DNA of 59,156 nt from a virus. Location of the stretch: positions 1 through 59,156 of IMG/VR virus record IMGVR_UViG_3300042559_001610. One strand, written 5' to 3'. The stretch's first letter is position 1. Every line of letters starts with the position of its first letter. The translations under genes and the position numbers were made by a program. This document shows, in pieces, positions 8,632 through 58,152 of this stretch. The notes beneath the pieces were generated by a model. It searched no databases, was not told where the DNA came from, and saw only the letters and a program-made list of their open reading frames with translations.

Positions 8632-9942
8632 TTAATTTGATAATGGGGCTTTGATTGTCGGATGGGACTTATAATTTTCTAGAATTACATCATTGGTTGA
8701 ACTGCAGAAAATACCATCTCTGACATGAACCGTTGGTAACTCAAATGGCTCTCTAGTTCTTCTTGGAATGCACCATTGATCAATTTCGGAATGAGATAAT
8801 GTTGAGCTATCCCCTGCTGTATAGATTTGACTAAACATTTCTGGGCTAACCAGATCCCTTCTTTCTTCCAGGGTCAATTCCCTTCCAATCTGTTCTTTTG
8901 CTTGTTCAAGGTGGTTAAGGTAAAGGTGGGTGTCACCCAAATTACCAATTAATTCATCAGGAACCATATTCACCTCGTCTGCAATCATCATTAGGAGTAG
9001 CCCATAAGAAGCTATGTTGAAGGGAAGTCCCAAAAAGGTATCTATGCTGCGCATATTAAACATTAAAGAGATTGCTCTGGTTGGAATATTCCATCCATTC
9101 AAATCTTCATGTTCAAAATTTTCAATATGTCCTTTTGGTTCCCACCCAGCTTTAAGTCCTAATTGTATTCTTTCAAGTCGATTCAACTCTCTTGTATAAA
9201 CTTGAAATCCATAATGACATGGAGGGAGCAACATCTGCGAAATTTCAGATACGTTCCAGCTATTAACCATTAGACGTCTTGAGTCTGGGTTTGTTTTAAG
9301 GTCGTTGATTAGGTTTGCGATTTGGTCTATTGGTTGATTTTTGTCTCTTTCTTTTATTAATCTACTAGCTTCCTCATGAAGATATTCGTCTGTAATTCCA
9401 TTACCAACTTCAATAAGAGTATCTATAACAGTCTCTAATGATATAGAGTCTATTTTAGGTATAGACCAACTTCTCCACTGCTTACCATAAATTGGGCCTA
9501 GTTCTCCAAATCTTTTAGAAAACTCATCATCTGTTTTGATTTTGTTGATGAATTCTTCTTGTGATAAAGGTGCCCATTGTAACCCGCCATCAACCAACTT
9601 CAACCATTTGTTAGACTGTTCTTCAGTTAAGTTACAACTACCATCTGATTCTTCCCACCATTTGGTATAAAACTTATAGCAGTCTCCGTCCCAAATATGA
9701 CAGTTATTTTCCAAAAGGTACCTTAGATCGGTTCTGCCCTGGAGGAACCACAGAAGCTCTGCTACTACCGAATTCCAGTGAATTTTTTTGGTGGTAATTA
9801 AGGGGAACCCTCCAGACATTTTATGACGAATTTGTCTACCAAATACTGAAATGGTTCCAGTTCCTGTGCGGTCTCCTTTTTGTACACCATTATCAAGAAT
9901 GTCTTGTAATAGGTCTGTGTATGATTTATCTAGGTTGTTCAT
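8632..9942 (-). CDS. thyA: thymidylate synthase with insertions
   Basis: ThyA makes dTMP from dUMP with methylene-tetrahydrofolate. Hallmarks are RTGTGT near residue 26, GPIYGKQWR near 149, nucleophile Cys242 in LLPPCHYGFQVY, and LPFNIASYG near the folate site. At 436 residues it is far longer than the usual ~264-300; extra segments lie at about residues 95-148, 162-215 and 250-290. The first includes EEFINKIKTDDEF, a motif that also recurs in the small paralogues encoded just upstream (10152-13252). The core residues are intact, so I expect an active enzyme. Confidence 0.95.
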   Translation of the reverse strand: MNNLDKSYTDLLQDILDNGVQKGDRTGTGTISVFGRQIRHKMSGGFPLITTKKIHWNSVVAELLWFLQGRTDLRYLLENNCHIWDGDCYKFYTKWWEESDGSCNLTEEQSNKWLKLVDGGLQWAPLSQEEFINKIKTDDEFSKRFGELGPIYGKQWRSWSIPKIDSISLETVIDTLIEVGNGITDEYLHEEASRLIKERDKNQPIDQIANLINDLKTNPDSRRLMVNSWNVSEISQMLLPPCHYGFQVYTRELNRLERIQLGLKAGWEPKGHIENFEHEDLNGWNIPTRAISLMFNMRSIDTFLGLPFNIASYGLLLMMIADEVNMVPDELIGNLGDTHLYLNHLEQAKEQIGRELTLEERRDLVSPEMFSQIYTAGDSSTLSHSEIDQWCIPRRTREPFELPTVHVRDGIFCSSTNDVILENYKSHPTIKAPLSN

Positions 9943-15203: not shown

Positions 15204-15392
15204 TTATCTTTTTATTTTCCAGTTGATAAGAAACCAAAGGGTAAACATTCCGGGGATAAGCATCCACCAAATCCATTCTAGATGATTGTGTTGGACACCA
15301 GCCATTTTCTGAGCTAAATAAAATACTGTCGGGATAATCCAAATATGAATTGTTCCTGTTGGGCTAAAATTTTCTCTTTTTTCTATTTTCAT
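15204..15392 (-). CDS. two-pass membrane protein (62 aa)
   Basis: Two hydrophobic stretches, at about residues 14-31 and 39-58, flanked by basic ends, suggest a small hairpin membrane protein. Its stop lies one base after the neighbour's start region. It is one of several small membrane proteins at 15.2-16.2 kb; a holin-like role is possible but not shown. Confidence 0.55.
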   Translation of the reverse strand: MKIEKRENFSPTGTIHIWIIPTVFYLAQKMAGVQHNHLEWIWWMLIPGMFTLWFLINWKIKR

Positions 15393-15395
15393 TTC

Positions 15396-15581
15396 TTATT
15401 TTATTTTAGTGGCCCAAACAGAGTCTGGGAAAACTTCGGATCTTAATTTTAGTAGCTCGTCTCTGTGTGCTTGGAATTCGTCACCGTGAGAAGGCTGATG
15501 CCCCTTAATGATTGCTGTAGTCATTTCTAGATCTAGCTTTATGATGCGAGAAGTTTTTTCTTGGTATTCTTGAAAGTCCAT
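15396..15581 (-). CDS. hypothetical protein (61 aa)
   Basis: A small, soluble, helical protein starting MDFQEYQEKTSRIIK. It is the first leftward gene after the divergent intergenic region facing the only rightward gene. Confidence 0.5.
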   Translation of the reverse strand: MDFQEYQEKTSRIIKLDLEMTTAIIKGHQPSHGDEFQAHRDELLKLRSEVFPDSVWATKIK

Positions 15582-24716: not shown

Positions 24717-25493
24717 TTAGTATTTATTTAGTTTTAGGATTCCTTTTTCTTTATTGAAACAGTGAAGAGATGTGATGTGCATTGCATAATAACCTGGGGT
24801 AACGTCTCCCCATCTTTCAGGGTCTCTGTTTTTCAATTCGTCTAATACCCACATTAATTTTCTGCAAGCCATATAAATATCATCCCTAAAGTGTCTGATG
24901 TAGTCACAGGATCTAATGTAATATACGATATGAAGGTGATTTCCTCTTCTCATAAAATGATATCCGATTGTGCAAGGAACTCTTTCCCCATGAACTACCC
25001 CGGTGTCTTCCGGAAACCACATTGGAAGAAAAGCCTGTCTAGTAAAAGGTTCTTTCTGAAGTAGATTCAGAACATCTCCAAAATCCCCATAGTCATACCT
25101 GATCCCTTTCATGACTGTATTGGGTTCTTTGTCTGCATATCTAGGCCAAAGTCTTTCTGGATAAGTGTGGGAGAATTGACTGTGCCCTCCAAATTGCTCG
25201 TTGTTCTTCTGAGCAAAAGGCCACCACTCATGAGAAGGGGGAGGATTTAAAGGAAGACCTCCGATTCTTTCTTCAAAGTGATCGTCAGCCCAAGGTAAAT
25301 TTGGACGAACTTCTTCTCTTAACTCTTCTAGGGTTTGAGGTATGAAACACTGAAACGAGTGATTCATAATCTCGTTCATATCGTCAGGGGAATCTATCCC
25401 TTGCCACTTTTCAGTTTTAACAACGTATCCGTGATTGGAAAGTTTTTCTTTAGACCATTTGATTGCGTCTGAGAACTTTGAGAATGTCTTCAT
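24717..25493 (-). CDS. ThyA-superfamily enzyme, possible dNMP hydroxymethylase
   Basis: The 258-residue protein has the ThyA-fold pattern TRQAFLPMWFPEDTG, then VPCTIGYHFMRR with candidate nucleophile Cys174, and IRSCDYIRHFRDDIYMA, equivalent to the RS.D...G.PFNI segment. It diverges strongly from the canonical ThyA at 8632, so the two are not simple duplicates. Such second ThyA homologues in phages include dCMP and dUMP hydroxymethylases that feed hypermodified DNA. A role in modified bases is therefore plausible; the reaction itself cannot be read off. Confidence 0.75.
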   Translation of the reverse strand: MKTFSKFSDAIKWSKEKLSNHGYVVKTEKWQGIDSPDDMNEIMNHSFQCFIPQTLEELREEVRPNLPWADDHFEERIGGLPLNPPPSHEWWPFAQKNNEQFGGHSQFSHTYPERLWPRYADKEPNTVMKGIRYDYGDFGDVLNLLQKEPFTRQAFLPMWFPEDTGVVHGERVPCTIGYHFMRRGNHLHIVYYIRSCDYIRHFRDDIYMACRKLMWVLDELKNRDPERWGDVTPGYYAMHITSLHCFNKEKGILKLNKY

Positions 25494-25537
25494 TGAGGAT
25501 TATATCTCAGAAGACGAAAAAGTTTTCTTTTCTACAC

Positions 25538-26128
25538 TTAACTTTTAGGCCAAGATTTAATTTTGAACTCTTTGAAGTCAGAAGATTTTGGTTTGACGTT
25601 AGGAAAGTAATACATGCTGGTATCTTTTCCTGCAATTATTCTTTTATAGAAACCCGAAGGAACGGTAGCTCCAGTGGGTAATTTAATTGGATTTTTATAC
25701 TCGAGTTTGATTAGAACATTAACTTTATCTTTTTCCCCAGAAATCCTTCTTTCTTCTGCTTCTAAAAGTCTCCACGTTCCTCTGTTTAGATATTGATCTT
25801 GAAGAGCACAATTAAGGTATGAGAATGTTTTTCTTAGCATCTCCGTACTGCAAGTAAAAGCTGCCGCAGGAGCCATGTGTCCTTTATCGTAGACGTTATT
25901 TTCATAGTCTGCATTATCTGAAGTGATGATGGAATCGTTAGTGTAGAAGTCCATTCCTTTTCTTGAAGCGGTCCCATTTGGACAAAGAACTGTGTATTCT
26001 ACGCTTAAAGGTTGCTGATAAGCCTCGGAATAATTAACCGTAAAAATGTCGGTCTTTACCAGAACACTAGTCCTTGGCGTTAAAGATAAGAGGATAAGAA
26101 TTATTGGTATCAGAAAAAATCTTTTCAT
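25538..26128 (-). CDS. secreted DNA/RNA non-specific endonuclease (NUC1 family)
   Basis: An N-terminal signal peptide (residues 1-22) precedes a beta-beta-alpha metal nuclease: DKGHMAPA with general base His84, and YLNCALQDQYLNRGTW with metal-binding Asn about 106 and the following N-R-G-x-W. NUC1 enzymes cut DNA and RNA without sequence preference. Export suggests it acts in the periplasm or outside, for example on competing incoming DNA or released host nucleic acid. Confidence 0.85.
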   Translation of the reverse strand: MKRFFLIPIILILLSLTPRTSVLVKTDIFTVNYSEAYQQPLSVEYTVLCPNGTASRKGMDFYTNDSIITSDNADYENNVYDKGHMAPAAAFTCSTEMLRKTFSYLNCALQDQYLNRGTWRLLEAEERRISGEKDKVNVLIKLEYKNPIKLPTGATVPSGFYKRIIAGKDTSMYYFPNVKPKSSDFKEFKIKSWPKS

Positions 26129-26226: not shown

Positions 26227-26535
26227 TTATTGTGATTTTTTAGGTCTTCCTTTTTTCTTCGCAGGAGATTTCTCGGTCTCTGTAGTTTTCTTTGCCTTTG
26301 TAGTTTTCTTAGGTTTGCTAATTGCTTTAACCTCTTTAACTGGCTCTTGTACGGGAATTTCCTCAACAATTGGTTCTTCTTTAACCTCTTCTTCTGGTGA
26401 CCAGGTTTCAATAGGTAGATCTAATTCGGGAATTGTGGTTTCCTCTGAGGATAATTCTTTTTCGTCTTTCTTTAGAAACTTGTAAGCTCCAAAAATAAGT
26501 AAAGCGATTACTGTGATTAAAATTATTTCTGTCAT
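26227..26535 (-). CDS. membrane protein with acidic linker and AT-hook tail
   Basis: Residues 4-21 are a membrane segment; an acidic Pro/Glu stretch follows, and the last 30 residues are Lys-rich and end KKKGRPKKSQ, matching the AT-hook core G-R-P. A membrane anchor joined to a minor-groove DNA-binding tail suggests tethering of phage or host DNA to the membrane. No experiment supports this. Confidence 0.6.
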   Translation of the reverse strand: MTEIILITVIALLIFGAYKFLKKDEKELSSEETTIPELDLPIETWSPEEEVKEEPIVEEIPVQEPVKEVKAISKPKKTTKAKKTTETEKSPAKKKGRPKKSQ

Positions 26536-26555
26536 ATTATTTTTAGATTTATACC

Positions 26556-26996
26556 TTAAAGTGAGGAAAAAATTTCATCTACCATTGGAATATATCTTGG
26601 TAATGTTCTTCTCTGGCACTCTTCATAATCCATGAAAACTGCATCTGAAAGTTCTTCTTCCTGAAGCATATACTTTGGAATTTCCCCTTTTATCAATGTG
26701 GGTATTCCTAATTGATCCAGAGAATCAATTCTGCATTCAAAGATATAAACTTCTTTATAAGCTTTTGCCCCTTGAGCATTGGTGTACCTTACCAAGTGTT
26801 CTTTTCCGAGCATGTCTATCGGAACTTTAATTCCGCATTCTTCCTCTACCTCTCTAATTGCAGCTTCTTCTTTTGTCTCACCTTCTTCCAACTTACCTTT
26901 TGGAGGCATCCAGCTTCTAAACCAAGGAGAACGAGTTGCATGGGACAGGAGGATTTTCCCGTCGTAAATGATTGCTATTCCAGCTGACTTTTCCAT
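26556..26996 (-). CDS. Nudix hydrolase
   Basis: A complete Nudix box, G-x5-E-x7-REVEEECGI, spans about residues 34-56, so metal-dependent hydrolysis of a nucleoside diphosphate linked to another group is expected. Phage Nudix enzymes decap mRNA or clean nucleotide pools. The rest (about 146 residues) is typical of compact family members. Confidence 0.9.
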   Translation of the reverse strand: MEKSAGIAIIYDGKILLSHATRSPWFRSWMPPKGKLEEGETKEEAAIREVEEECGIKVPIDMLGKEHLVRYTNAQGAKAYKEVYIFECRIDSLDQLGIPTLIKGEIPKYMLQEEELSDAVFMDYEECQRRTLPRYIPMVDEIFSSL

Positions 26997-32543: not shown

Positions 32544-33083
32544 TTATTTCTTTATCCAATTGTAATTTTCTTTTAGTATTTCTCTTGAGTATCTGTTTAG
32601 ACACGGAGATCCAGTGTTATAAGCACCAAATGCTAAACCCCAATCCCCATGAATTTTATACCAGTCTTTCATCATGCTCATAGAAACCCTGACGTTGAGT
32701 TTGATGTCGTTCCTTAACTCCTTTCCAGTTACCTTTCTTCCGGCATGTTTACGGGCATATCTGGGCATAATCTGCATAGGACCAACCGCTCCAGCTGATG
32801 AGGTCTGTTTGTGGTTGTACGAGGAATCTAGAGGACCTTGATATCTCGTCTCCTGATAGGCAATCCCAAAGGCATATTTTTCAGGAATCCCATACTCTTT
32901 GCAATATTTTTTGATGTAGTAGTACACCCTAATTGAGGGGATAGATTTATCGATCTCCTCCTCCGTCATGTTCCCTATATAAGGGTCTTTTGGTTCCTCC
33001 CTTGGGAATAAAATCAAAGCAAGACAAACTATAATACCTGTTATAGTTGCTGCTACAATTTTATTTCTCTTCTGAGATTCCAT
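32544..33083 (-). CDS. membrane-anchored lytic transglycosylase (SLT)
   Basis: A membrane anchor at residues 9-26 precedes an SLT domain with catalytic Glu78 in AYQETRY, then SSAGAVGPMQIMP and LAFGAYNTGSP, all diagnostic. The enzyme cleaves peptidoglycan glycan strands. As an anchored enzyme it may act in lysis or help DNA entry; it has its own promoter-like motif at 33091. Confidence 0.9.
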   Translation of the reverse strand: MESQKRNKIVAATITGIIVCLALILFPREEPKDPYIGNMTEEEIDKSIPSIRVYYYIKKYCKEYGIPEKYAFGIAYQETRYQGPLDSSYNHKQTSSAGAVGPMQIMPRYARKHAGRKVTGKELRNDIKLNVRVSMSMMKDWYKIHGDWGLAFGAYNTGSPCLNRYSREILKENYNWIKK

Positions 33084-33090
33084 TCATATA

Positions 33091-33100
33091 AGTATACGGT
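33091..33100 (-). promoter_or_regulatory. ACCGTATACT promoter-like motif variant
   Basis: A variant eight bases before the transglycosylase ATG, at the boundary with the outer-membrane protein gene. Confidence 0.45.
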
Positions 33101-33103
33101 CAT

Positions 33104-33982
33104 TTAGAACTCAGTGCATTTTCTTTTGCTGTTGATATTGGATTTGTATTTTTTACCAGATCCAAATCCAAAGTTTCCATTTTTTCCTAGAGTATAATTA
33201 AAGCCAAAGGTAAAGAAAAAGAAATTGTCGTTGTTCTTATAATCACCTCTGATTGACCCGGGACTGCTAAATCCTGGAATGGTTGAAATGTTTCTGTCCG
33301 CTAATGCTGCAGATGTTGGGCCAAGTAAATTTGGATCCACGTAGAACGTGCTCACGTCATCGATATAGTCCGTTTGAGTTTTTCTACCATTAACCTCAAT
33401 TGTAAAGTAAGATCTCCTGCTAGTGACAAATTTACAACCAAATCCGAGAGGAAAACAAACTGAATATAGGGAATATGGAGATTTTCCAGGAAGAACATAC
33501 TGGCCTTCGGTTCCCCAGTCTCTTAGGGTATAAACCTGACCGTTCATTCTAGTTTTTGGGTTAAAATGGAAATATCCAACCCCACCAAGAACATAGAAGA
33601 TTTTCTTTTTGTTTGGTGTTCTGTAGATGTTGGCCTCAAGGGTTAAATCTGCTTCATAGATCTCACTAAAGAAATTTAGATTTCTTCCTCTTCTCTCTCT
33701 GTTGATGGTGTATTTGTCATCGCCATAAAGTCTTGCATACCAAAAATTTGTTCTCACAGAAAATGTTTTTCCAATTCCAAACCTAAGTCCAGCATCCAGT
33801 GCGTATCTAGTAGAACCAAAATCTAGGTCTTGAAGGTCGTTAGTTCCCAAAAAGGGTTTACCCCCAAGATCCCCAAGGAAATGACTGGTTGATATTCCTC
33901 CCATCAGATCCACCTTCTGGGATTTTAAATTTACAGGGAGCAAAACAAAAATCCCCAATACTAAGCTAAAGATAATTTTCAT
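33104..33982 (-). CDS. outer-membrane beta-barrel protein
   Basis: A Sec signal peptide (MKIIFSLVLGIFVLLPVNLKSQ region) precedes ~270 residues of alternating strands, with segments such as ALDAGLRFGIG, FYVLGGVGYFHF and FFFFTFGFNYTLG typical of Bacteroidota barrels (DUF6089-like). A phage-encoded barrel may alter host surface receptors, block superinfection or be cargo acquired from a host. Confidence 0.8.
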   Translation of the reverse strand: MKIIFSLVLGIFVLLPVNLKSQKVDLMGGISTSHFLGDLGGKPFLGTNDLQDLDFGSTRYALDAGLRFGIGKTFSVRTNFWYARLYGDDKYTINRERRGRNLNFFSEIYEADLTLEANIYRTPNKKKIFYVLGGVGYFHFNPKTRMNGQVYTLRDWGTEGQYVLPGKSPYSLYSVCFPLGFGCKFVTSRRSYFTIEVNGRKTQTDYIDDVSTFYVDPNLLGPTSAALADRNISTIPGFSSPGSIRGDYKNNDNFFFFTFGFNYTLGKNGNFGFGSGKKYKSNINSKRKCTEF

Positions 33983-36765: not shown

Positions 36766-36912
36766 TAACCGGGCCAGGATTCGAACCTGGTTGAACTCAC
36801 TCTAGAGCTTATTTACTACATATCTTTCGATCTGCAGCTGAGTTCTCATCTCCTCGAGGACGTCTCCCCTTACAGACTGACTCTGTAGCGTATACCCTTC
36901 CGCCTCCCGGTT
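36766..36912 (-). ncRNA. aberrant tRNA-Leu-like RNA with giant variable region, 147 nt
   Basis: Acceptor AACCGGG/CCCGGTT, Leu-type D arm (GCG...CGC) and T arm are intact. The anticodon-position helix ACAGA/TCTGT closes on a five-base loop, and ~85 bases follow before the T arm, including a GAACTCA/TGAGTTC hairpin. This is about 60 bases longer than any normal Leu tRNA. Confidence 0.6.
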
Positions 36913-37114
36913 ATGCTTTCTTTCTCACAGTTAAAAGATGATATTGGTGACAATGAGTGCATTTGTAAGCAACCAATTTAGTTCCCAATTTCGGATCTTT
37001 TTCGTTAACTATTTTAGCTGCACTTATTGCTGCCTTGTCATCCGGATAAGCTTTTTTAGCAAGCCCATTTCTAGAAATACAAGTCCATTTTCCTTTATCA
37101 GTACATTTAACCAT
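36911..37114 (-). CDS. small zinc-binding-like protein (67 aa)
   Basis: MVKCTDKGKWTCISRNGLAKK opens the protein and YKCTHCHQYHLLTVRKKA closes it; the C-x-x-C-H...H pattern suggests zinc. Its stop overlaps the 5' end of the tRNA-like gene by two bases. A promoter-like motif lies upstream at 37127. Confidence 0.65.
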   Translation of the reverse strand: MVKCTDKGKWTCISRNGLAKKAYPDDKAAISAAKIVNEKDPKLGTKLVAYKCTHCHQYHLLTVRKKA

Positions 37115-37126
37115 TTTATTTATCTA

Positions 37127-37136
37127 AATATACGGT
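37127..37136 (-). promoter_or_regulatory. ACCGTATATT promoter-like motif
   Basis: Perfect copy 13 bases before the ATG at 37114, directly after the next tRNA-like gene. Confidence 0.5.
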
Positions 37137-37139
37137 TAG

Positions 37140-37224
37140 TAGTCAGGGAAGGAATCGAACCTCCAACGCAAAACCCGTCTTAACGTGGGTGAACTGCCAT
37201 TTCTCCATTATATGCCACCTGACT
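37140..37224 (-). ncRNA. tRNA-like RNA, AGTCAGG acceptor, possible Leu(TAA)
   Basis: Acceptor AGTCAGG/CCTGACT and a T arm are present. The anticodon region contains GTTAAGA, compatible with anticodon TAA, but the supporting stem needs a bulge (CCC-A-CG/CG-GG). Length 85 fits a type II tRNA. It may be a degraded or modified tRNA-Leu. Confidence 0.5.
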
Positions 37225-37371
37225 AAATTTAAGAACAAGGCATATCGGTCGTTCCCTCTATATTGACTAACCCCTGCCATATTCTTTGCCCCGCTAAAGG
37301 CATACCTTTTGAGATGTTGGTCTGAGATTGAATTGGCTATTACGTAATTTACCTCATCAATTTATTCTTAG
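37225..37371 (-). other. non-coding gap between tRNA-like genes
   Basis: No gene is supported. The eight-base string AAGGCATA occurs twice in the same orientation about 63 bases apart. Probably transcribed spacer or structured RNA. Confidence 0.3.
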
Positions 37372-37476
37372 TAGTCAGGGCAGGAATCGAACCTGCGAGT
37401 GCTTTGCCATAAAGAGTGCCATTAGCTGTTAATCTCAACCTTGGGAGGTGCCACGTTACCACTACGCCACCTGACT
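37372..37476 (-). ncRNA. aberrant tRNA-like RNA, AGTCAGG acceptor, 105 nt
   Basis: Acceptor AGTCAGG/CCTGACT, T arm GCAGG/CCTGC and a D-loop-like GTAGTGGTAA are present. At the anticodon position ACCT/AGGT closes on four bases; a CTTT/AAAG hairpin follows like a variable arm. No normal seven-base anticodon loop can be formed. Confidence 0.55.
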
Positions 37477-37492
37477 ATATTTGACCACTGGT

Positions 37493-37569
37493 GGGATTTG
37501 AACCCCGAAGACCTTACGTATCGGTCACCCTCCTGTTCGTCCGTTCCAAACGTAACTTACATCAGTGAT
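37493..37569 (-). ncRNA. tRNA-like RNA, unresolved
   Basis: Acceptor ATCACTG/CAGTGGT pairs over seven bases and a TTCAAAT T-loop is present, but the T stem is weak and no clear anticodon arm forms. A GACC/GGTC hairpin resembles a variable arm. Identity unknown. Confidence 0.4.
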
Positions 37570-37576
37570 TTTTAAT

Positions 37577-37618
37577 CAATAGGGGGACTACGAATCCCTA
37601 GAACAGGTACTCCTATTG
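37577..37618 (-). ncRNA. tRNA minihelix-like hairpin (acceptor plus T arm only)
   Basis: In 42 bases, a seven-base pair CAATAGG/CCTATTG directly abuts a T-arm mimic (GGGA-TTCGTAG-TCCC). The D and anticodon arms are replaced by 13 bases. It looks like the top half of a tRNA and could be a decayed tRNA or a substrate for tRNA-processing enzymes. Confidence 0.45.
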
Positions 37619-37625
37619 AAGTTGG

Positions 37626-37702
37626 TAGTCAGTGCAGGATTCGAACCTACTTGTAGGATTTTCCGCCCTACTTTTCCAGGTGTCTTGTACTTCGACCTGA
37701 CT
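37626..37702 (-). ncRNA. tRNA-like RNA, AGTCAGG acceptor, Phe-like loop
   Basis: The acceptor pairs with one mismatch; T arm GTAGG/CCTGC is fine. A six-base anticodon stem GTAGGG/TCCTAC encloses CGGAAAA, which would read GAA if position 33 were T. The D arm is not recognisable. A degenerate tRNA-Phe is possible; a normal tRNA-Phe exists at 39920. Confidence 0.45.
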
Positions 37703-37712
37703 ATATTTAAAA

Positions 37713-37817
37713 AATCCGAGGGGGCCTCACCGTCCCTCTATGTGGCTGAGTTAAACTCTTCTCTCAAGAGGAGATACCATCATGTGCCGGCCTATTACTT
37801 GTTTACACTACCGGATT
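37713..37817 (-). ncRNA. structured RNA without T loop
   Basis: AATCCG/CGGATT closes a 105-base element containing CTCTT/AAGAG and GAGTTTAACTC hairpins. There is no TTCGA loop, so it is not a standard tRNA. It is the first RNA downstream of a promoter-like region. Confidence 0.35.
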
Positions 37818-37828
37818 CTTTTTGTCTT

Positions 37829-37870
37829 TTACTATTTCAAATAACTTTTTGTTTCGATTAAATATACGGT
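37829..37870 (-). promoter_or_regulatory. promoter region of the first tRNA-like array
   Basis: On the minus strand ACCGTATATT is followed 14 bases later by GTTATTTGAAATAGTAAAA. Variants of the second string (GTTATTTGACATATTAGAAA) occur just upstream of tRNAs at 39997, 41180, 48771 and 49978. Confidence 0.5.
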
Positions 37871-46612: not shown

Positions 46613-46626
46613 TTGTAAAAAATACA

Positions 46627-46763
46627 GGATTGGGGTTTTTTTCCTGCTCTAACCAACTGAGCTACTCTGAACGATGCCACTTAAGGCTGTGTTCAAAGGA
46701 AGGACTCGAACCTCCGACCCGGGCATTATAAGTGCATTTTTTTAATTTTTGCTGTAACAATCC
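46627..46763 (-). tRNA. circularly permuted tRNA-Ile (TAT) in enclosing element U1
   Basis: Reading leftwards, GGATTG-TTACAGCAA and an A-rich spacer come first, then the tRNA 3' half (46735-46691: GCA-CTTATAA-TGCCC anticodon side, T arm GGAGG/CCTTC, acceptor CTTTGAA). An 18-base linker follows, then the 5' half (46672-46643: acceptor TTCAGAG, D arm GCTC/GAGC, GG), AAAAAAACCC and CAATCCTG. Rejoined, the halves give acceptor 7/7 pairs, anticodon stem GGGCA/TGCCC and loop CTTATAA. GGATTG/CAATCC encloses the unit. This order is that of a permuted tRNA gene. Confidence 0.85.
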
Positions 46764-46777
46764 TTTAATAAGTTTCA

Positions 46778-46903
46778 GGTTTCAGGTTTTTTGACCAGTG
46801 CGTCTACCAATTTCGCCATCGGGGATTTCTCCCTCTGTGGGGCTCGAACCCACACATCCTTTCGGATATCGGTTTTGATTATTTTTTCTTGCTGTAAGAA
46901 ACC
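46778..46903 (-). tRNA. circularly permuted tRNA-Leu-like in enclosing element U2
   Basis: The 3' half (about 46878-46829: TCAAAACCGAT, variable arm ATCC-GAAA-GGAT, T arm GTGGG/CCCAC, acceptor AGAGGGA) precedes the 5' half (46825-46793: TCCCCGA, Leu D arm GCG/CGC, ACTGGTC). Acceptor strands pair at four of seven positions and are joined by GAAA, forming GGGA-GAAA-TCCC. The halves both carry TCAAAA at the join, giving likely anticodon CAA. The enclosing helix is GGTTTC/GAAACC with the same conserved leader and trailer. Confidence 0.7.
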
Positions 46904-46915
46904 TTTTATTATCTT

Positions 46916-46951
46916 AGATCAGTAAGTGAAAATAGTTTCATTTACTGATCT
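46916..46951 (-). other. long perfect hairpin between tRNA-Pro and U2
   Basis: AGATCAGTAA/TTACTGATCT plus TGAAA/TTTCA gives about 15 pairs around a short loop. It may be an RNase III-type processing site or attenuator that separates the tRNA-Pro and permuted units. Confidence 0.5.
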
Positions 46952-46954
46952 TTT

Positions 46955-47032
46955 GTCTCCGCGGAGGGCTTCGAACCCCCAGTAATGTCCTCGTCCCAAA
47001 CGAGGCGACTTCCCAATTAGTCTACACGGAGA
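46955..47032 (-). tRNA. tRNA-Pro (TGG)
   Basis: Acceptor TCTCCGT/GCGGAGA, anticodon arm CCTCG-TTTGGGA-CGAGG (TGG), T arm GGGGGTTCGAAGCCCTC. Normal, unpermuted gene. Confidence 0.9.
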
Positions 47033-47100
47033 AATTATGGGTGGGATCAGAGGCCTTCTGCCCACCGGGACCTTCATTTTGAGATTGCTCTCAGGGAACG
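47033..47100 (-). other. structured spacer between tRNA-Pro and U3
   Basis: Contains GTGGG/CCCAC with an inner CAGA/TCTG hairpin but no TTCGA loop. No gene supported. Confidence 0.3.
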
Positions 47101-47121
47101 AAGACACTTTTTTAAAAATGC

Positions 47122-47246
47122 GGGATCGCATGTTTTTGGCCTGCTGCTCTACCAACTGAGCTACCGGGGATGCCGAAGCATTGTCCCCAGGTGAGACTCG
47201 AACTCACGACCCGCGGGTTGGATTTTTTCGTTGCTGTAACGATCCC
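47122..47246 (-). tRNA. circularly permuted tRNA in enclosing element U3
   Basis: The 3' half (47221-47183: CCAA-CCCGC, GGGTC, T arm GTGAG/CTCAC, acceptor CTGGGGA) precedes the 5' half (47170-47138: TCCCCGG, D arm GCTC/GAGC, GCAGG). Acceptor strands pair 7/7 and the 13-base linker contains a TGC-TTCG-GCA hairpin. Anticodon stem GCAGG/CCCGC has one mismatch; the anticodon is uncertain (CCA or TCC by where the halves join). Helix GGGATCG/CGATCCC encloses the unit. Confidence 0.8.
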
Positions 47247-47258
47247 AATAAATTTACA

Positions 47259-47313
47259 GGATGCTTGTTTTTTCAATTTAAAAGTTTGATTTTTTGATTT
47301 GCTGTATGCATCC
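47259..47313 (-). ncRNA. empty permuted-tRNA-type element U4
   Basis: GGATGC-ATACAGCAA ... AAAAAAC-AA-GCATCC-TG has the full enclosing helix, leader and trailer of U1-U3 but only about 30 A/T-rich bases inside and no tRNA. It abuts U3 with a TAAATTTATT spacer. Confidence 0.7.
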
Positions 47314-47326
47314 TTTAATAAGTTCA

Positions 47327-47385
47327 GGTTAGTTTTTGATTTTACATCCAATTGTATAATTTTTTTAATTTTGCTGGAACTAACC
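47327..47385 (-). ncRNA. empty permuted-tRNA-type element U5
   Basis: GGTTAGT-TCCAGCAA ... AAAAACTAACC-TG carries the same helix and conserved ends with a 40-base A/T-rich interior and no tRNA. The spacer AACTTATTAAA to U4 matches that between U2 and U1. Confidence 0.7.
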
Positions 47386-47393
47386 TTTTTTTG

Positions 47394-47630: not shown

Positions 47631-48539
47631 TTATTGTTTCCAAGATTTTCTTTTGAAACAATTAATTTCATAAAATTCTGGGAGAAATCTTTTCATCCAT
47701 CCATTTATTTTTTGATCTGATAATCCAACTATTTTAGAAGCTTGAGATACCCATCCAAAGGAAGAAAAATCTATGCCTGATGAAATTAATTCTTCTGCAA
47801 TTCTTTGATTCTTTTCGTTGTATTGTATTGCATTTAAAGCTCTCTTATCTACTTTTGGGGTTTTTAATTCTTTGGATCTTATTAATCTTTCTTCTAATTT
47901 TTTAGTTTCGGAATTTGAAAGGAAGGAAATTAAGTCCTCGATTTTAAAGCTCTCTGTCTCGTCATAAGCTATTCTATAAACTCTCCATCCTGATTTTTCT
48001 AAATTATGATCCCTGGTTATGTCATGATCTATTCTTTTTTTATTTATAAAATGACATTTTCCATCAAATTCAACTGCTACTTTTTCATTAATAAAAGCAA
48101 AATCAATAAAATATGGATAAACTGGATGTTGAAAGATAACATCATACTTTGAATAAATCTTATTCTCTTCAAATATATTGTGTAACCATTCCTCTCCGTA
48201 GGTCATTAACCCGTTTGCTACTTTACCCCAAGCCGTTTTTTGGAAATTGTTTTTATCCGAAAGATATTCGAATCTTTTTTTCCTCATTTTTTCCTTAGTT
48301 TCTTCTGAATATACTTTAGTATGACTGAGTGTTTTTAAACATTTTTTATCTCCACAAGTGGAATTAAATTTTATACCTCTTCTTAATTTTCTATTTTTTT
48401 CACAATATGGGCACTTAGGAATTTTCATATTTTCATATTTTTGATAATATTCAAGAAGACTGATTCCATATTTTTTTAAACTTGTCGATAGACCTAATTT
48501 ATTTTTACAAATTGTTCCATCTATTTTAGATATAATCAT
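47631..48539 (-). CDS. PD-(D/E)XK (DUF559/Vsr-like) homing-type endonuclease
   Basis: An N-terminal zinc finger (CPYC...CGDKKC) precedes a Vsr/DUF559-like catalytic core: YPYFIDFAFINEKVAVEFDGKCHF and a later KSGWRVYRI. A C-terminal helix-turn-helix-like part (SQASKIVGLSDQKINGWMKR) could read DNA. It lies inside the second tRNA cluster, as selfish nucleases often do. Confidence 0.75.
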   Translation of the reverse strand: MIISKIDGTICKNKLGLSTSLKKYGISLLEYYQKYENMKIPKCPYCEKNRKLRRGIKFNSTCGDKKCLKTLSHTKVYSEETKEKMRKKRFEYLSDKNNFQKTAWGKVANGLMTYGEEWLHNIFEENKIYSKYDVIFQHPVYPYFIDFAFINEKVAVEFDGKCHFINKKRIDHDITRDHNLEKSGWRVYRIAYDETESFKIEDLISFLSNSETKKLEERLIRSKELKTPKVDKRALNAIQYNEKNQRIAEELISSGIDFSSFGWVSQASKIVGLSDQKINGWMKRFLPEFYEINCFKRKSWKQ

Positions 48540-52482: not shown

Positions 52483-52494
52483 AGAAGTTTGACA

Positions 52495-52662
52495 GGATCG
52501 TGTTCGTTTATTTCTCCCCGGCGGGATATCTCTCTTTTGACGTCTGAGAATTTGACGGTAACCTTTTTTGAAACTGGAGATTTTACCAGGGTGCTCGATA
52601 AGGACGAATCCTTAATTAAGCTTGCATTGATTAATTGTAGTTAATTTTTGCTGTATCGATCC
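52495..52662 (-). ncRNA. enclosing element U6 with unknown RNA cargo
   Basis: GGATCG-ATACAGCAA ... CGATCC-TG reproduces the permuted-tRNA enclosing element, but the 156-base interior has no T arm. It contains a TAAGGA-TTCG-TCCTTA hairpin and a GAGAGATATCCCGCC segment. It may carry a different RNA or a degraded tRNA. Confidence 0.6.
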
Positions 52663-52669
52663 TTTTACT

Positions 52670-52727
52670 GGTTCCTGTGGGTTTTTCTTAATTTAATTTT
52701 AGGTTTTTAAGTTTGCTGTAAGGAACC
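52670..52727 (-). ncRNA. empty element U7
   Basis: GGTTCCT-TACAGCAA ... AGGAACC-AG forms the same enclosing helix with a short A/T-rich interior. It directly precedes U6, as U5 precedes U4 and U2 precedes U1. Confidence 0.65.
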
Positions 52728-53150: not shown

Positions 53151-53384
53151 TTAAAATTCCTTTATCTTTTCAAATTCTTCCTTGCTGATAAAAACTTCTC
53201 CCGAGCAATAGGAACCACCCGTTAGGATGGCCCATGCTTTGGAGATTCTTCTACCCAAGGTGTCCCCTGAATAGCTTTTATAAACAGTTACTATAGTTTC
53301 CTCCAACTCGTCGTTAAACTTGTCGAAAGCTATAATAGAGCATCCATCGGAGCATCTAACCAGTAATTCTTTTCTTTCTTCCAT
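53151..53384 (-). CDS. hypothetical protein (77 aa)
   Basis: A small alpha/beta protein overlapping the Ro60-like stop by one base (TAATG type), so it is translated together. Function unknown. Confidence 0.6.
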   Translation of the reverse strand: MEERKELLVRCSDGCSIIAFDKFNDELEETIVTVYKSYSGDTLGRRISKAWAILTGGSYCSGEVFISKEEFEKIKEF

Positions 53385-54826
53385 TATGCTTTGATAGCTT
53401 CGTATCTAGGTGAAAGAATAGTTTCGTCCATTATTGCAGATGGGCTTGTTATTTCCCCTCTAACAACAGACTTTAGAATCGATGGGCTAAATCCGGAGAT
53501 TAAAGCTGTTCCAGTCTTGTCGAAAGCTACTGGAACGTTGTCCCCTCTGGATTGGATGTTCCAGTAAACTATCTGAGGCATTTTATAACCTGCAGAAGAG
53601 TACTTTTGCTCGATCATTTGTTGAGCAGTTGGATTCCAAGAACTTCCTTCAGATCTTCCGTAGTAACCCCCTCTAGATCCGTTTGCTGCATCGAATTCCA
53701 TATCTGATAGGATCAAAACCTTAGTTGGCATTTCAGACTCAGGAACTGAGTTCTTCTTTGCTTGGTCTAGGATTAGATCAAACACCCTTTCGACGTTGGT
53801 GTTCATTCCCCATTCAGCTCTTGCAAGTTGAGCAAATCTGTCTCTCAAGTTACCTTTTAGGTATTGAAGAGTTGGGTTAGCAGAGAAGGTAACGAATGCA
53901 TCCTTGAATGCACCTTCGTTTCTTTCAGAGATGTAAAGACCTAGTGATAGGGAAACATCCATACAAGTAACGTTTTTGTTTCCTCCTGCTGGGCAACCCA
54001 TAGATCCAGAAACGTCTACCACTGGTAGGATTCTTTCTGTAGAACCTTCCATGTAGTTTGGAAGAGCTTTCCATTGCTCGATTGCTACATCTGCGTTTCC
54101 TCTTTGTAGTGACTTAGTCACGTCGTAAGGGTAAACTGCAGAAGCATTAATCTTAGCTTCTCCTTTTTGAAGAGATGCAATGTAGGCTTTGTATCCCGCC
54201 TCGTTTCTTTTCCAGAAAGCCTTTTGGTATCTAGCAGAAGCAACTGATGGCAATTTACCAAAGTCGATGCTCTCCCACTCGTTTGAACACATTTGGGTTT
54301 CTACCACCTTAGTTAATTCAACTAAAGTCTTTCTATATTGTTTTGGTGACATTTCTAAGAACTGTCTTAATCTGTTAGCAACTGGACCTTTTCTAGGCAT
54401 CCATTTTGCTGCAAGACCATTCTTGTTCTCTAAAGCCCAACGAATTTGAGTTAAAGCTTCTGTCTCTAACTTAGTTCCAACCAGAGTTAAAAGATCGTCC
54501 CATCTTCCATATTCGGAAACATAAGGAATGTTTTCCTTTAGGAATTGAGGGTGGTTTTCTGCAAGGTAAACCATGATGTCCTTGAAGATCTGACGTTCTC
54601 CAGCTCCACCTCTAATGTCTCTTACCCAAAAGAGAATTTTCATTGCTCTATTTGGATCATTTAACAAAGCAAGCGAGAACTTAGAGATCAAACGCTCTTT
54701 GTTTTGACCTCTCATAGCTCCGATTGTGAAGAATAAATCCACACAAGCGTTTAGAGAAGATGAGTTAGTTGTCATCCCGTTTTCTGTAACGGTGTTGTTT
54801 TGTCTTAATGCGTCTACAAGTTTCAT
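53384..54826 (-). CDS. Ro60-like TROVE and von Willebrand A domain protein
   Basis: The 480-residue product has a helical N-terminal domain (about residues 20-260, FSLALLNDPNRAMKILFWVRDIRGGAGER) and a vWA domain whose MIDAS motif is DVSGSM at 271-276 with ILSDMEFD later. This is the architecture of Ro60/TROVE and related DUF2828 proteins that hold misfolded or non-coding RNAs such as Y RNAs; bacterial Y RNAs contain tRNA-like modules. In this phage, with many odd tRNA-like RNAs and an RNA ligase nearby, a role in RNA handling is a strong lead. Confidence 0.8.
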   Translation of the reverse strand: MKLVDALRQNNTVTENGMTTNSSSLNACVDLFFTIGAMRGQNKERLISKFSLALLNDPNRAMKILFWVRDIRGGAGERQIFKDIMVYLAENHPQFLKENIPYVSEYGRWDDLLTLVGTKLETEALTQIRWALENKNGLAAKWMPRKGPVANRLRQFLEMSPKQYRKTLVELTKVVETQMCSNEWESIDFGKLPSVASARYQKAFWKRNEAGYKAYIASLQKGEAKINASAVYPYDVTKSLQRGNADVAIEQWKALPNYMEGSTERILPVVDVSGSMGCPAGGNKNVTCMDVSLSLGLYISERNEGAFKDAFVTFSANPTLQYLKGNLRDRFAQLARAEWGMNTNVERVFDLILDQAKKNSVPESEMPTKVLILSDMEFDAANGSRGGYYGRSEGSSWNPTAQQMIEQKYSSAGYKMPQIVYWNIQSRGDNVPVAFDKTGTALISGFSPSILKSVVRGEITSPSAIMDETILSPRYEAIKA

Positions 54827-56102: not shown

Positions 56103-57203
56103 TTATACTTCCTCCTCAGATTTAGTTTCAAACGGTCTTGAATATACAGGTTTTATCATTTGCCAGATTTTAGAATTTGGATCTCTCCCATCTGCAATCA
56201 GAAATAAAATTCCAGTGCTAATTCTCGAGTCTTTCACCGACAAAAATGCTTCAGCAATTTGCTTTCTGCTCATCTCTTCTGACTTTAAGATGGAATTTAC
56301 TTGAGCAACGTGAAGGGACTTTATAAAGGAAAATTTACTTCTAAGATCAATTTCAACTTTTCTTATCCAATCGTAAAATTCGTCTGGAACGTTATTCAAG
56401 AAAGTTTCTGGTAATTCCCCATTAGTTTTTAAAAAATCCCAAACATCATAAGTTGAAACCTGAGTTACAATTCTGTGGAGTCTCACATATTCTTCAAACT
56501 TAATTTTACATCTTAACCCAGAAGGAAAAAATCTAAGAACAAATCCCTCCTTATTTGATTCATTTCTGTCTTTTAATTTTAGAAATAAGTCTTCCTTATC
56601 TCTTTCCATTAAAGTTGGAACTATGTCCTCTTCTAAAATTCCGTTTGATTTGAACACAGATTTTGCAGTCCCCCAATTCAATTCTCCGGCTGGGGTAGAA
56701 GCAGTTATAAAAACAAAGGTCTCCAAATCCCCATAATCTACAACTATTCTATTTTCTTTAAAAATGATTTCTCCAATATAAGCAACCTCTGACATGAATT
56801 TATCTAAATTGTATTTAGATTTTATAATTTCAAACCCTCTGACGGCTTGATCTGAAGTAAAAGACCCTCTAGATGAGAATACCCATTTCCCTTTGTAGTT
56901 AAATAATATCCCCAGAGAACCGTCCATTTTTTCTTGAACGTAGATGTACTCTGAAGAATTGATTAGGTTCTCATTTTCGTCTATCCTTTCCTCGTAGTTG
57001 AAGAATTTAGGAATTGGTCTAACTAGGATTTCTCCAGTTGACGAGTCAACTATTAGACCCCGGCAAGCCAAAGTCACGTCGTCCCATTGACCATCGTATT
57101 GAGTCTTCTGAGTGTAGTTATAAATAGTCAGCGGAAGAGTTGGATGCACTTGAGACATCAACCAACCTTCAGCCACATAAGCGTCTAAAATTTCTTTGTT
57201 CAT
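56103..57203 (-). CDS. RNA ligase (T4 Rnl1-like)
   Basis: Ligation Lys92 lies in EKMDGSLG (motif I); SSRGSF, GEIIFKENRIVV, EGFVLRF (motif IV) and CKIKFEEY (motif V) follow in order. CRGLIVD near residue 47 matches CRGIMFE of Rnl1. These enzymes seal RNA 5'-phosphate and 3'-hydroxyl ends and repair cut tRNA anticodon loops. In this window it could also close the circular or split tRNAs implied at 46627-47246. Confidence 0.88.
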   Translation of the reverse strand: MNKEILDAYVAEGWLMSQVHPTLPLTIYNYTQKTQYDGQWDDVTLACRGLIVDSSTGEILVRPIPKFFNYEERIDENENLINSSEYIYVQEKMDGSLGILFNYKGKWVFSSRGSFTSDQAVRGFEIIKSKYNLDKFMSEVAYIGEIIFKENRIVVDYGDLETFVFITASTPAGELNWGTAKSVFKSNGILEEDIVPTLMERDKEDLFLKLKDRNESNKEGFVLRFFPSGLRCKIKFEEYVRLHRIVTQVSTYDVWDFLKTNGELPETFLNNVPDEFYDWIRKVEIDLRSKFSFIKSLHVAQVNSILKSEEMSRKQIAEAFLSVKDSRISTGILFLIADGRDPNSKIWQMIKPVYSRPFETKSEEEV

Positions 57204-57348: not shown

Positions 57349-58152
57349 CTAAATTGGAAGTTTAACTCTCGAAAGCATTTGATTCGAAACGTGGGTGTAA
57401 ATTTCAGTAGTCTTAGAAGATGAATGTCCTGCGATCTTTTGAATTATTCTAAGATCTGTTCCAGATTCAAGAAGGTTGGTAAAAGAGGAATGTCTAAGAG
57501 TATGGATGGATGATTTGTCATCTATATATTTCTTATAGATTTTTTGACAGCTTCCTATTGAATACTTCAGAGAATTTTGTCCATTAAAAAGATACACTTT
57601 AGGTTTAAAATTTCTCCAGTATTCTCTAAGAAGTTCCAAGACTATCTGAGAAAGTGGAACAATCCTATCTTTTCTACCTTTGGCATTTTTAATGTGAATT
57701 ATCATCCTTTTTGAATCGATATCCTCTATTTTAAGATTGATAATTTCGGACACGCGGAGTCCTACTGAGTAAGTTAATGTTAAAATTGTCTTGTGTTTTG
57801 GATTTTCAATTAAATTTAATTTAGATAAAATAAATTCCGAATCAATTACTTTAGGTAGTTTCTTTTCTGACCTTGGTCTTTTGAAAGAAACTTTATCGTA
57901 CTTTTTATTTAAAATCTCCTTATATAAAAATCGGATAGCATTAATTACTTGGTTCTGCTGCGAGATAGAGGTGAATTTATAGTTATCTAAGTAAGATTGA
58001 AAATCAGAAGAATTGCAATGTATAATCTGTTTATTATTTAAACTTTCTAAAAAAGGTTTGATATGAGATAAATAATTATCTCTTGTTCTAGGAGAATAGT
58101 TTAAGTATATAAATTTTTCTTCACAAATCTTTATAATTTTTTGATTTTTCAT
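57349..58152 (-). CDS. tyrosine recombinase (XerC/D-like integrase)
   Basis: Catalytic residues Arg133 (GLRVSE), Lys about 158-161 (KGRKDR), HTLRH at 217-221, His243 (GHSSSKTT) and Tyr252 (EIYTH) are all present, in a 267-residue protein with a normal core-binding N-terminus. It could insert or excise DNA. Three small genes with cassette-like repeats follow, so an integron-style or other recombination role is possible. Confidence 0.9.
   Translation of the reverse strand: MKNQKIIKICEEKFIYLNYSPRTRDNYLSHIKPFLESLNNKQIIHCNSSDFQSYLDNYKFTSISQQNQVINAIRFLYKEILNKKYDKVSFKRPRSEKKLPKVIDSEFILSKLNLIENPKHKTILTLTYSVGLRVSEIINLKIEDIDSKRMIIHIKNAKGRKDRIVPLSQIVLELLREYWRNFKPKVYLFNGQNSLKYSIGSCQKIYKKYIDDKSSIHTLRHSSFTNLLESGTDLRIIQKIAGHSSSKTTEIYTHVSNQMLSRVKLPI

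Follow-up and report, generated by a model that had tools for sequence, protein, structure and literature searches.

Three neighbouring units in a viral DNA of 59,156 nucleotides (positions 1 to 59,156 of IMG/VR record IMGVR_UViG_3300042559_001610, hereafter the window), described in the original prediction as circularly permuted tRNA genes, are in our reading noncoding RNAs of the Y RNA kind. We put at roughly 0.84 the probability that these units, U1 to U3, are not tRNA genes and carry a handle of their own for a Ro60-fold protein of the phage, which would bind it. This reading draws on the anatomy of the units, on their linkage to the gene of this protein in phage and cellular genomes, on the predicted fold of the protein and on helix pairing in relatives, whereas transcription in this phage, binding and function are presumed. 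It is very likely that U1 to U3 are Y-type Ro RNAs with a different handle, and unlikely that they are permuted tRNA genes.

Ro60 proteins bind Y RNAs (PMC7765460, in part). In the mechanism that we propose, the 5' and 3' ends of each RNA would pair into a short stem, and this stem together with the adjacent UUACAGCAA would form the handle held by the phage Ro60-fold (DUF2828/DUF7788) protein. The insert would mimic a tRNA in circularly permuted order, with its acceptor end closed into a hairpin and the handle standing where the anticodon arm would be. By analogy with Ro60 and YrlA, such an insert may allow tRNA-like handling of the Ro-like particle or, alternatively, may gate or tether the particle towards tRNA-like or misfolded RNA and their enzymes. 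U4 to U6 have the handle and an A/U-rich loop but lack a tRNA part. The setting is a phage rich in tRNA genes that also encodes an RNA ligase, and there the tRNA-like arm may, again by analogy, attract tRNA-handling enzymes or gate the Ro-like ring.

Anatomy of the units and of their tRNA-like halves

On the minus strand U1, U2 and U3 each consist of a stem strand, TTACAGCAA, a T-arm half, a short linker, a D-arm half and the stem complement (Table 1). The T-arm (3') half lies ahead of the D-arm (5') half in all three, as predicted and as can be read directly from the strand. The common enclosing motif and its covarying end helix also proved real, and the frame shared by the units can be written as a terminal stem, [A/T]TACAGCAA, an insert and the stem again. 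Four further units, U4 to U7, have the same frame without a tRNA, U7 being less certain. Seven elements had been counted originally; the frame is found in U1 to U6, and the long partner pairing of U7 is tentative, a shorter fold at 52597-52666 being favoured (E 0.012) by R1, a covariance model that we built from 25 phage units. The uniform start and end that had been claimed hold for the enclosing frame but not in every letter: U5 has the core TCCAGCAA, and U3 and U6 end in CCCGC and CCAG, neither of which is CCTG. Eight copies of TACAGCAA occur in the window against 1.2 expected, six of them within units and the remaining two (15512 and 51120) inside listed ORFs. R1 misses U1 and U3 at E <= 1; in U2 it matches the 5' end weakly (18.6 bits, E 0.078).

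Table 1 Units, Ro-like gene and RNA ligase gene of the window
Feature	Position	Strand	Description	Score or size
U1	46626..46764	-	open handle GGATTG + TTACAGCAA ... CAATCC around a circularly permuted tRNA-like domain, Ile-TAT-like once rejoined	
U2	46778..46903	-	open handle GGTTTC + TTACAGCAA ... GAAACC around a permuted class-II tRNA-like domain (Leu-like, long variable arm)	
U3	47122..47246	-	open handle GGGATCG + TTACAGCAA ... CGATCCC around a permuted tRNA-like domain with TTCG-capped closed acceptor	
U4	47258..47314	-	short unit with handle, no tRNA-like insert	R1 55.5 bits (training sequence)
U5	47326..47386	-	short handle unit, variant core TTCCAGCAA	R1 48.8 bits (training sequence)
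U6	52670..52727	-	short unit with handle, lying downstream of the Ro-like gene at 657 nt	R1 31.2 bits (training sequence)
U7	52494..52663	-	handle core GGATCGATACAGCAA; tentative partner CGATCCTGT about 170 nt off	
Ro60-fold protein (predicted), DUF2828 + DUF7788 (phrog_850 'RNA-binding protein')	53384..54826	-	proposed handle binder	480 residues
T4 Rnl1-like RNA ligase	56103..57203	-	linked to the units by position only	

ARAGORN finds 24 tRNA genes in the window, plus one tmRNA. Several odd tRNA-like repeats with the common ends AGTCAGGT...CTGACTAC and long unusual interiors lie at 36780-37860 on the minus strand, and a DUF559 / REase_MTES_1575 endonuclease-like gene sits within the tRNA cluster (47631-48539, minus strand). 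The matches listed for homologous DNA in known phages (20 of 22 records) were all short, with 75-83% identity and at the query start, and where annotated they were mostly tRNA genes. Self-splicing or ribozyme cores were absent from the Rfam matches of the region.

Circularly permuted tRNA genes occur in algae and archaea, and we examined how well the two halves of each unit make a tRNA. The acceptor strands pair at seven of seven positions in U1 (TTCAGAG/CTTTGAA) and in U3 (TCCCCGG/CTGGGGA), reproducing the predicted pairing, and at only four of seven in U2 (counted by eye). With default settings ARAGORN called no tRNA in U1 to U3 as they stand. After rejoining of the halves it called tRNA-Ile(tat) in U1, the Ile TAT identity that had been proposed, and tRNA-Gly(tcc) in U3, while U2 gave no call; rejoined U1 retains a complete anticodon hairpin. 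Rotated units analyzed with introns allowed gave Ile(tat) for U1 and Gly(acc) for U3, so that the anticodon of U3 is ambiguous. The relaxed setting (-ps60) was set aside because extra calls appear there, including U2 rotated and U2 and U3 as they stand. Out of the nine pairings of 5' and 3' halves, two of the three cognate ones were called (U1 and U3) and none of the six non-cognate ones. Together with the complete acceptors of U1 and U3 this indicates that the permutation is real, that the halves belong together instead of coming from different tRNAs, and that U2 is degenerate. The acceptor hairpins of U1 and U3 also appear in RNAfold. Terminal helix and T-arm are both present in the best RNAfold structures of U2 and U3, the terminal helix in those of U4 to U6, and neither in that of U1 folded alone.

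These calls speak for genuine permuted tRNA genes, in which RNase P and RNase Z would free the acceptors and an endonuclease and the phage ligase would join the anticodon halves across the handle to give tRNA-Ile(UAU), tRNA-Gly and a Leu-like tRNA. The fit of cognate halves alone, the intact acceptors of U1 and U3 and the T4 Rnl1-like ligase gene all agree with such a route; the failure of U2 does not. The remaining evidence on this reading comes from the relatives and is given with the inserts below.

The Ro60-fold protein and its linkage to handle units

The gene of the proposed handle binder lies 0.7-6.8 kb from the units, with U1 to U3 at 6-7 kb. Its product is predicted to adopt the Ro60 fold, with a helical-repeat part and a vWA part. 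An AlphaFold model (pLDDT 85, pTM 0.86, 18 sequences) had 1yvr as its top match in a fold search (Z 21.9, 413 aligned residues, rmsd 3.8, about 12% identity). The ten best solved matches were all Ro60/TROVE, the tenth at Z 12.6 and the next at Z 10.2 over 164 residues, and so were all five Foldseek matches at E <= 0.001. The fold search alone revealed Ro60: by sequence the protein matched no solved structure at E <= 1, it had no match to Pfam TROVE, and it scored 11.8 bits with the Pfam model of the Ro60 vWA part (vWA_Ro60), under the 27.7 required. In the vWA part D271, S273 and S275 are invariant across the 18 sequences. The homologue in several mycobacteriophages is annotated as 'Ro-like RNA binding protein', and in phage Crossroads three units directly follow the gene that bears the Ro-like annotation. 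By tblastn, DUF2828 proteins were matched in 682 phage records out of 50,697, and in cellular genomes they were matched in at least 552 contig stretches.

We analyzed the surroundings of this gene in 23 IMG/VR loci (the near copy L014 being left out), 17 annotated phage loci and 80 cellular loci, the latter being the best 80 of at least 552. Every [A/T]ACAGCAA within 1.5 kb outside the gene was counted on both strands, helix or not, and a core was scored as closed when it had a 7-bp helix. Closed cores made up 113 of 148 in the cellular loci (56 of 80 loci), 23 of 29 in the phage loci (11 of 17) and 14 of 27 in the IMG/VR loci (7 of 23), and all of them were on the gene's strand. With 104 scrambled cores the median closed counts were 1, 0 and 1, respectively. 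The highest scrambles were register shifts of the motif, at 49 and 38 and then 6 for the cellular loci, 9 and 6 and then 4 for the phage loci, and 6 and then 5 (the 6 alone being a register shift) for IMG/VR. Over whole IMG/VR loci 17 of 55 cores were closed against 18 for the best scramble; as this is no excess, the IMG/VR signal is confined to the gene's vicinity. The loci are partly non-independent, since L021/L022 and L016/L017/L018 look like near copies, and viral contigs may be present in the genome collection.

A covariance-model search for relatives was successful, R1 finding handle units in phage and cellular loci alike. At E <= 0.1 it gave 103 matches, spread over 58 of the 80 cellular loci, every one on the gene's strand and 98 of them within 1 kb upstream of the gene; the other 22 loci were without a match. 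Counting an R1 match or a stem-closed unit, 71 of 80 cellular loci have one, partly by a loose 6-bp rule. In the 27 same-protein phage loci outside the training set 27 matches reached E <= 0.5, none of them on the strand opposite to the gene, and 15 of these loci have a match at E <= 0.05. In L015, L016, L017, L018, L023 and L024 an R1 match, whatever its E, begins no more than 20 nt from where the gene match ends, and the phage loci L020, L030, L037, L129 and L130 have neither an R1 match nor a stem-closed core near the gene. In 16 of 20 whole records R1 found units at E <= 0.1, some of them a long way from the gene, and by coordinates the distance between units and the Ro-like gene is 10-60 kb in other phages. 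Four of seven whole cellular genomes gave none at E <= 0.1, with 150 candidates scored in each. Out of two control records without a DUF7788 match, one (G043) gave four R1 matches at E <= 1, the best at E 0.009 and with no closing helix seen, and the other (G044) gave none at E <= 1. Rfam models at their cut-offs detected tRNAs only over 15 such loci.

The conservation of the end helix in homologues, on which the original prediction in part depended, was borne out: two-sided changes keep the helix at 7 of 7 pairs in units that were chosen for having it. Since the units were so chosen, the count with scrambled cores is the fairer test. Both results bear on the idea of neutral debris, namely tRNA pieces caught by repeated short hairpins such as the sites of a tyrosine recombinase. 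A recombinase gene does lie nearby (57349-58152) and the units stand in tandem, but the two-sided changes in these helix-selected units, the strict strand bias, the linkage to the Ro-like gene and the acceptor pairing kept in U1 and U3 leave this idea highly improbable. Integron-like or recombinase sites as such were set aside on account of the strand bias and the gene linkage.

Very high transcription is reported for three noncoding regions of Listeria phage CKA15, all less than 2 kb upstream of the homologue CKA15_055, and the authors discuss siRNAs or Y RNAs together with the Rsr-like protein, which was also present in purified particles (PMC12282133, in part). R1, the training of which included two units from a related Listeria phage, places three units at 25,286-25,555 (OR088597.1), directly upstream of CKA15_055. 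The most transcribed noncoding region in the published RNA-seq, 26,236-26,727 (L135, OR088597.1), is not a handle unit by R1. Y RNAs had earlier been found bioinformatically in mycobacteriophages (PMC12282133, in part), so that such RNAs in phages are not wholly new. The Ro-like gene of Vibrio phage KVP40 has a handle-like stem with TTACAGCAA across its start codon and the stretch directly ahead of it (L039 7957-7996), which is a possible autoregulatory site.

Inserts enclosed by the frame

A script gathered 194 stem-closed units, with a 6-bp helix allowed and chance closures included. Out of these, 151 had no tRNA arm, 25 a T-arm only, 11 a permuted insert, 5 an insert in normal order and 2 a D-arm only. 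The script misfiled U2 as T-arm only through a spurious inner partner and missed the permuted-looking units of S13 (L040) and phiN3 (L126 2339); the entries L132 4671, L066 1939 and L079 3834 may have arisen by reading across tandem closed-handle tRNAs, and two of the nine units that it gathered in the window (+ positions 33033-33139 and 15316-15526) lie outside the system. Permuted inserts were found by script in FelixO1, Crossroads and phiN3 and by eye in S13. The anticodon stem of the 11 permuted units is paired at 1 to 5 of 5 positions, and in the cellular units of L115, L119 and L106 the acceptor strands are 0, 0 and 1 nt apart, which means a closed hairpin. Open handles by the 7-bp rule with a T-loop inside numbered 38, against at most 4 in scrambles except for two register shifts (13 and 9).

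In other loci the tRNA is in normal order and the handle forms a closed hairpin in its anticodon loop (L034, L127, L132, L066, L072, L079, L090 and L122). Examples lie at 8871-8987 of L127, where it is annotated as a tRNA-Leu joined from two pieces, at about 9750-9870 of L034, at 3592-3832 of L090 and at 1880-2010 of L066. Judged by their sequences, these closed-handle tRNAs are circular permutants of U1 to U3, and the open-handle permuted and closed-handle normal forms would then be natural circular permutants of one RNA. Taken alone, closed hairpins ahead of the core were not enriched (25 of 603 against up to 22 in scrambles). Those between a D-arm and a T-arm numbered 11, that of L056 probably by chance, against at most 4 in scrambles, with the register shift ACAGCA at 8. 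In the phage locus L031 two adjacent handle units (9693-9888) differ in their inserts, a T-arm with a possible 5' part after it in one and a tRNA-like sequence in normal order in the other.

The closed-handle tRNAs, among them the two-piece tRNA-Leu, can be added to the case for genuine permuted tRNA genes. Against it stand the anticodon stem, which is unconserved over the 11 permuted units, the linkers between acceptor strands, 0-1 nt long in three units from cellular loci, and the 151 of 194 frame units filed without a tRNA arm (chance closures included), and on this balance we consider it very improbable. The proposal of tRNA genes in need of a new maturation route was not supported: the frame also encloses tRNA-free, T-arm-only and normal-order inserts, and it tracks the Ro60-fold gene.

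The inserts bear also on an intermediate possibility, in which handle RNAs have a tRNA by-product: the Ro-like particle would store or repair phage tRNAs, and a unit could be opened into a usable tRNA. Such a role is consistent with the occurrence of both topologies (the handle open and the acceptor closed, or the reverse) and with the tRNA clusters and RNA ligases that neighbour the units. As no conserved splice site was seen, and the anticodon stem is retained in only some of the closed-handle tRNAs (by eye), we hold it to be very improbable.

Comparison with known RNAs and proteins

With true tRNAs and the tmRNA set aside, YrlA (RF02553; PDB 6CU1) is the best Rfam match in the region for U3 (38.0 bits, E 1.2e-6) and U1 (34.8 bits, E 9.4e-6), both under the cut-off of 69 bits, which was reached in none of 16 records. 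The YrlA model also matches ordinary neighbouring tRNAs or tRNA pairs weakly, at 22.1 bits in the window, and it gives matches in 11 of 14 control genomes. Like YrlA, the units present a T-arm, a closed acceptor-like hairpin and a D-arm in that order, their ends pair into a stem beyond the tRNA-like part, and they are encoded near the gene of a proposed partner with the predicted Ro60 fold, which adjoins them in relatives. A permuted tRNA-like module with a closed acceptor hairpin is found in U1 and U3 and partly in U2, and the RNA's own ends can form a stem, although U1 alone folds otherwise in RNAfold. The bacterial Y RNA 6CU1 superposes on tRNAs with circular permutation, and ARTEMIS listed 81 permuted pairs featuring it with tRNAs (PMC11472068, in part). 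Unlike the window units, the Rfam consensus of YrlA is without ACAGCAA, and the unit scores are under the family cut-off; the phage arrays differ further in having tRNA-free members and, in relatives, normal-order and T-arm-only ones. The window protein resembles Ro60 and Rsr (TROVE) in its predicted fold over 413 residues but falls in Pfam DUF2828/DUF7788 instead of the TROVE model. With the units read as Y-type RNAs, what looked like an oddity (permuted tRNA genes in a phage) becomes a general rule that can be tested, in which DUF2828 proteins may be Ro60-like particles with an RNA family of their own.

With the permuted tRNA genes of algae and archaea (PMC10085705, in part) the units share the encoding of the 3' half before the 5' half and, in U1 and U3, halves that rebuild a tRNA. 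They differ in that a handle and a Ro-like gene accompany them instead of a splicing system, and in the anticodon stem, which is unconserved among the 11 permuted units.

The short units resemble the Class I RNAs of dictyostelids. In an open Rfam scan the Class I model (RF01414) matched U4 at 30.8 bits (E 0.0093, and 0.0011 in a second scan), under its cut-off of 41.5, and it scored 27.9 bits on U6 (E 0.051) and 17.5 bits on U5. In 16 of 28 phage records its best whole-record match, placed by sequence or coordinates, coincided with a handle unit, several of these matches being weak (E up to 0.18), and the 41.5-bit cut-off was reached in none of the 28 phage records or of 20 cellular genomes. 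In these 20 genomes (about 60 Mb, 150 candidates scored per genome, 11 with any match at E <= 1) the best match lay, by coordinates, at a DUF2828 locus in three (G030, G032 and G040). In record G001 the model pointed to a unit, which led to a DUF7788 match that ends about 60 nt ahead of this unit. At E <= 10 the model also matches in 8 of 14 control genomes.

Class I RNAs are marked by AA before an invariant G, a variable stem (6 bp in D. discoideum), a length of about 60 nt, an 11-nt motif just past the 5' strand and a CTGT end (PMC7919456, in part). U4 has an AAG start, a variable stem, (CC)UUACAGCAA 3' of the 5' strand, CUGU and about 60 nt. The 3' ends differ: CTGT is found in only 9 of the 25 phage rows of alignment A2, in which two rows misaligned at the 3' end (L124 and window 52666) were retained, the others having CTGA, CTGG, CAGT and so on, and the commonest end in bacterial units is TTGT (41 of 137). 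The DUSE promoter element and binding by Rnp1A are eukaryote-specific features of Class I RNAs. Four associated proteins are reported for one Class I RNA, the RRM protein Rnp1A being the one that binds it directly. The description of Class I RNA in PMC7919456 (in part) says nothing of tRNA-like inserts, which some of the phage units carry. Its authors state that Class I RNA is unique to dictyostelids, the taxa tested being other amoebae, Archaeplastida, Opisthokonta and one bacterium, Myxococcus xanthus. We found no published report of a link to Class I RNA in a search that lacked Chen 2014, Sim 2018 and Sim 2020, where the handle may be described.

A relation of the handle RNAs to Class I RNA is plausible. 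We give an even chance to the view that the DUF2828-linked handle RNAs and the Class I RNAs form one ancient family with a Ro60-like partner, characterised by the UUACAGCAA stem handle and by tRNA domains in either topology; convergence on a similar handle, in place of common descent, stands at about even odds. If the two do belong to one family, the Ro-like protein would be among the partners of Class I RNAs. A class published as confined to social amoebas would then have phage and bacterial relatives and a candidate protein partner, and the link would affect an RNA class tied to the origin of multicellularity in these amoebas.
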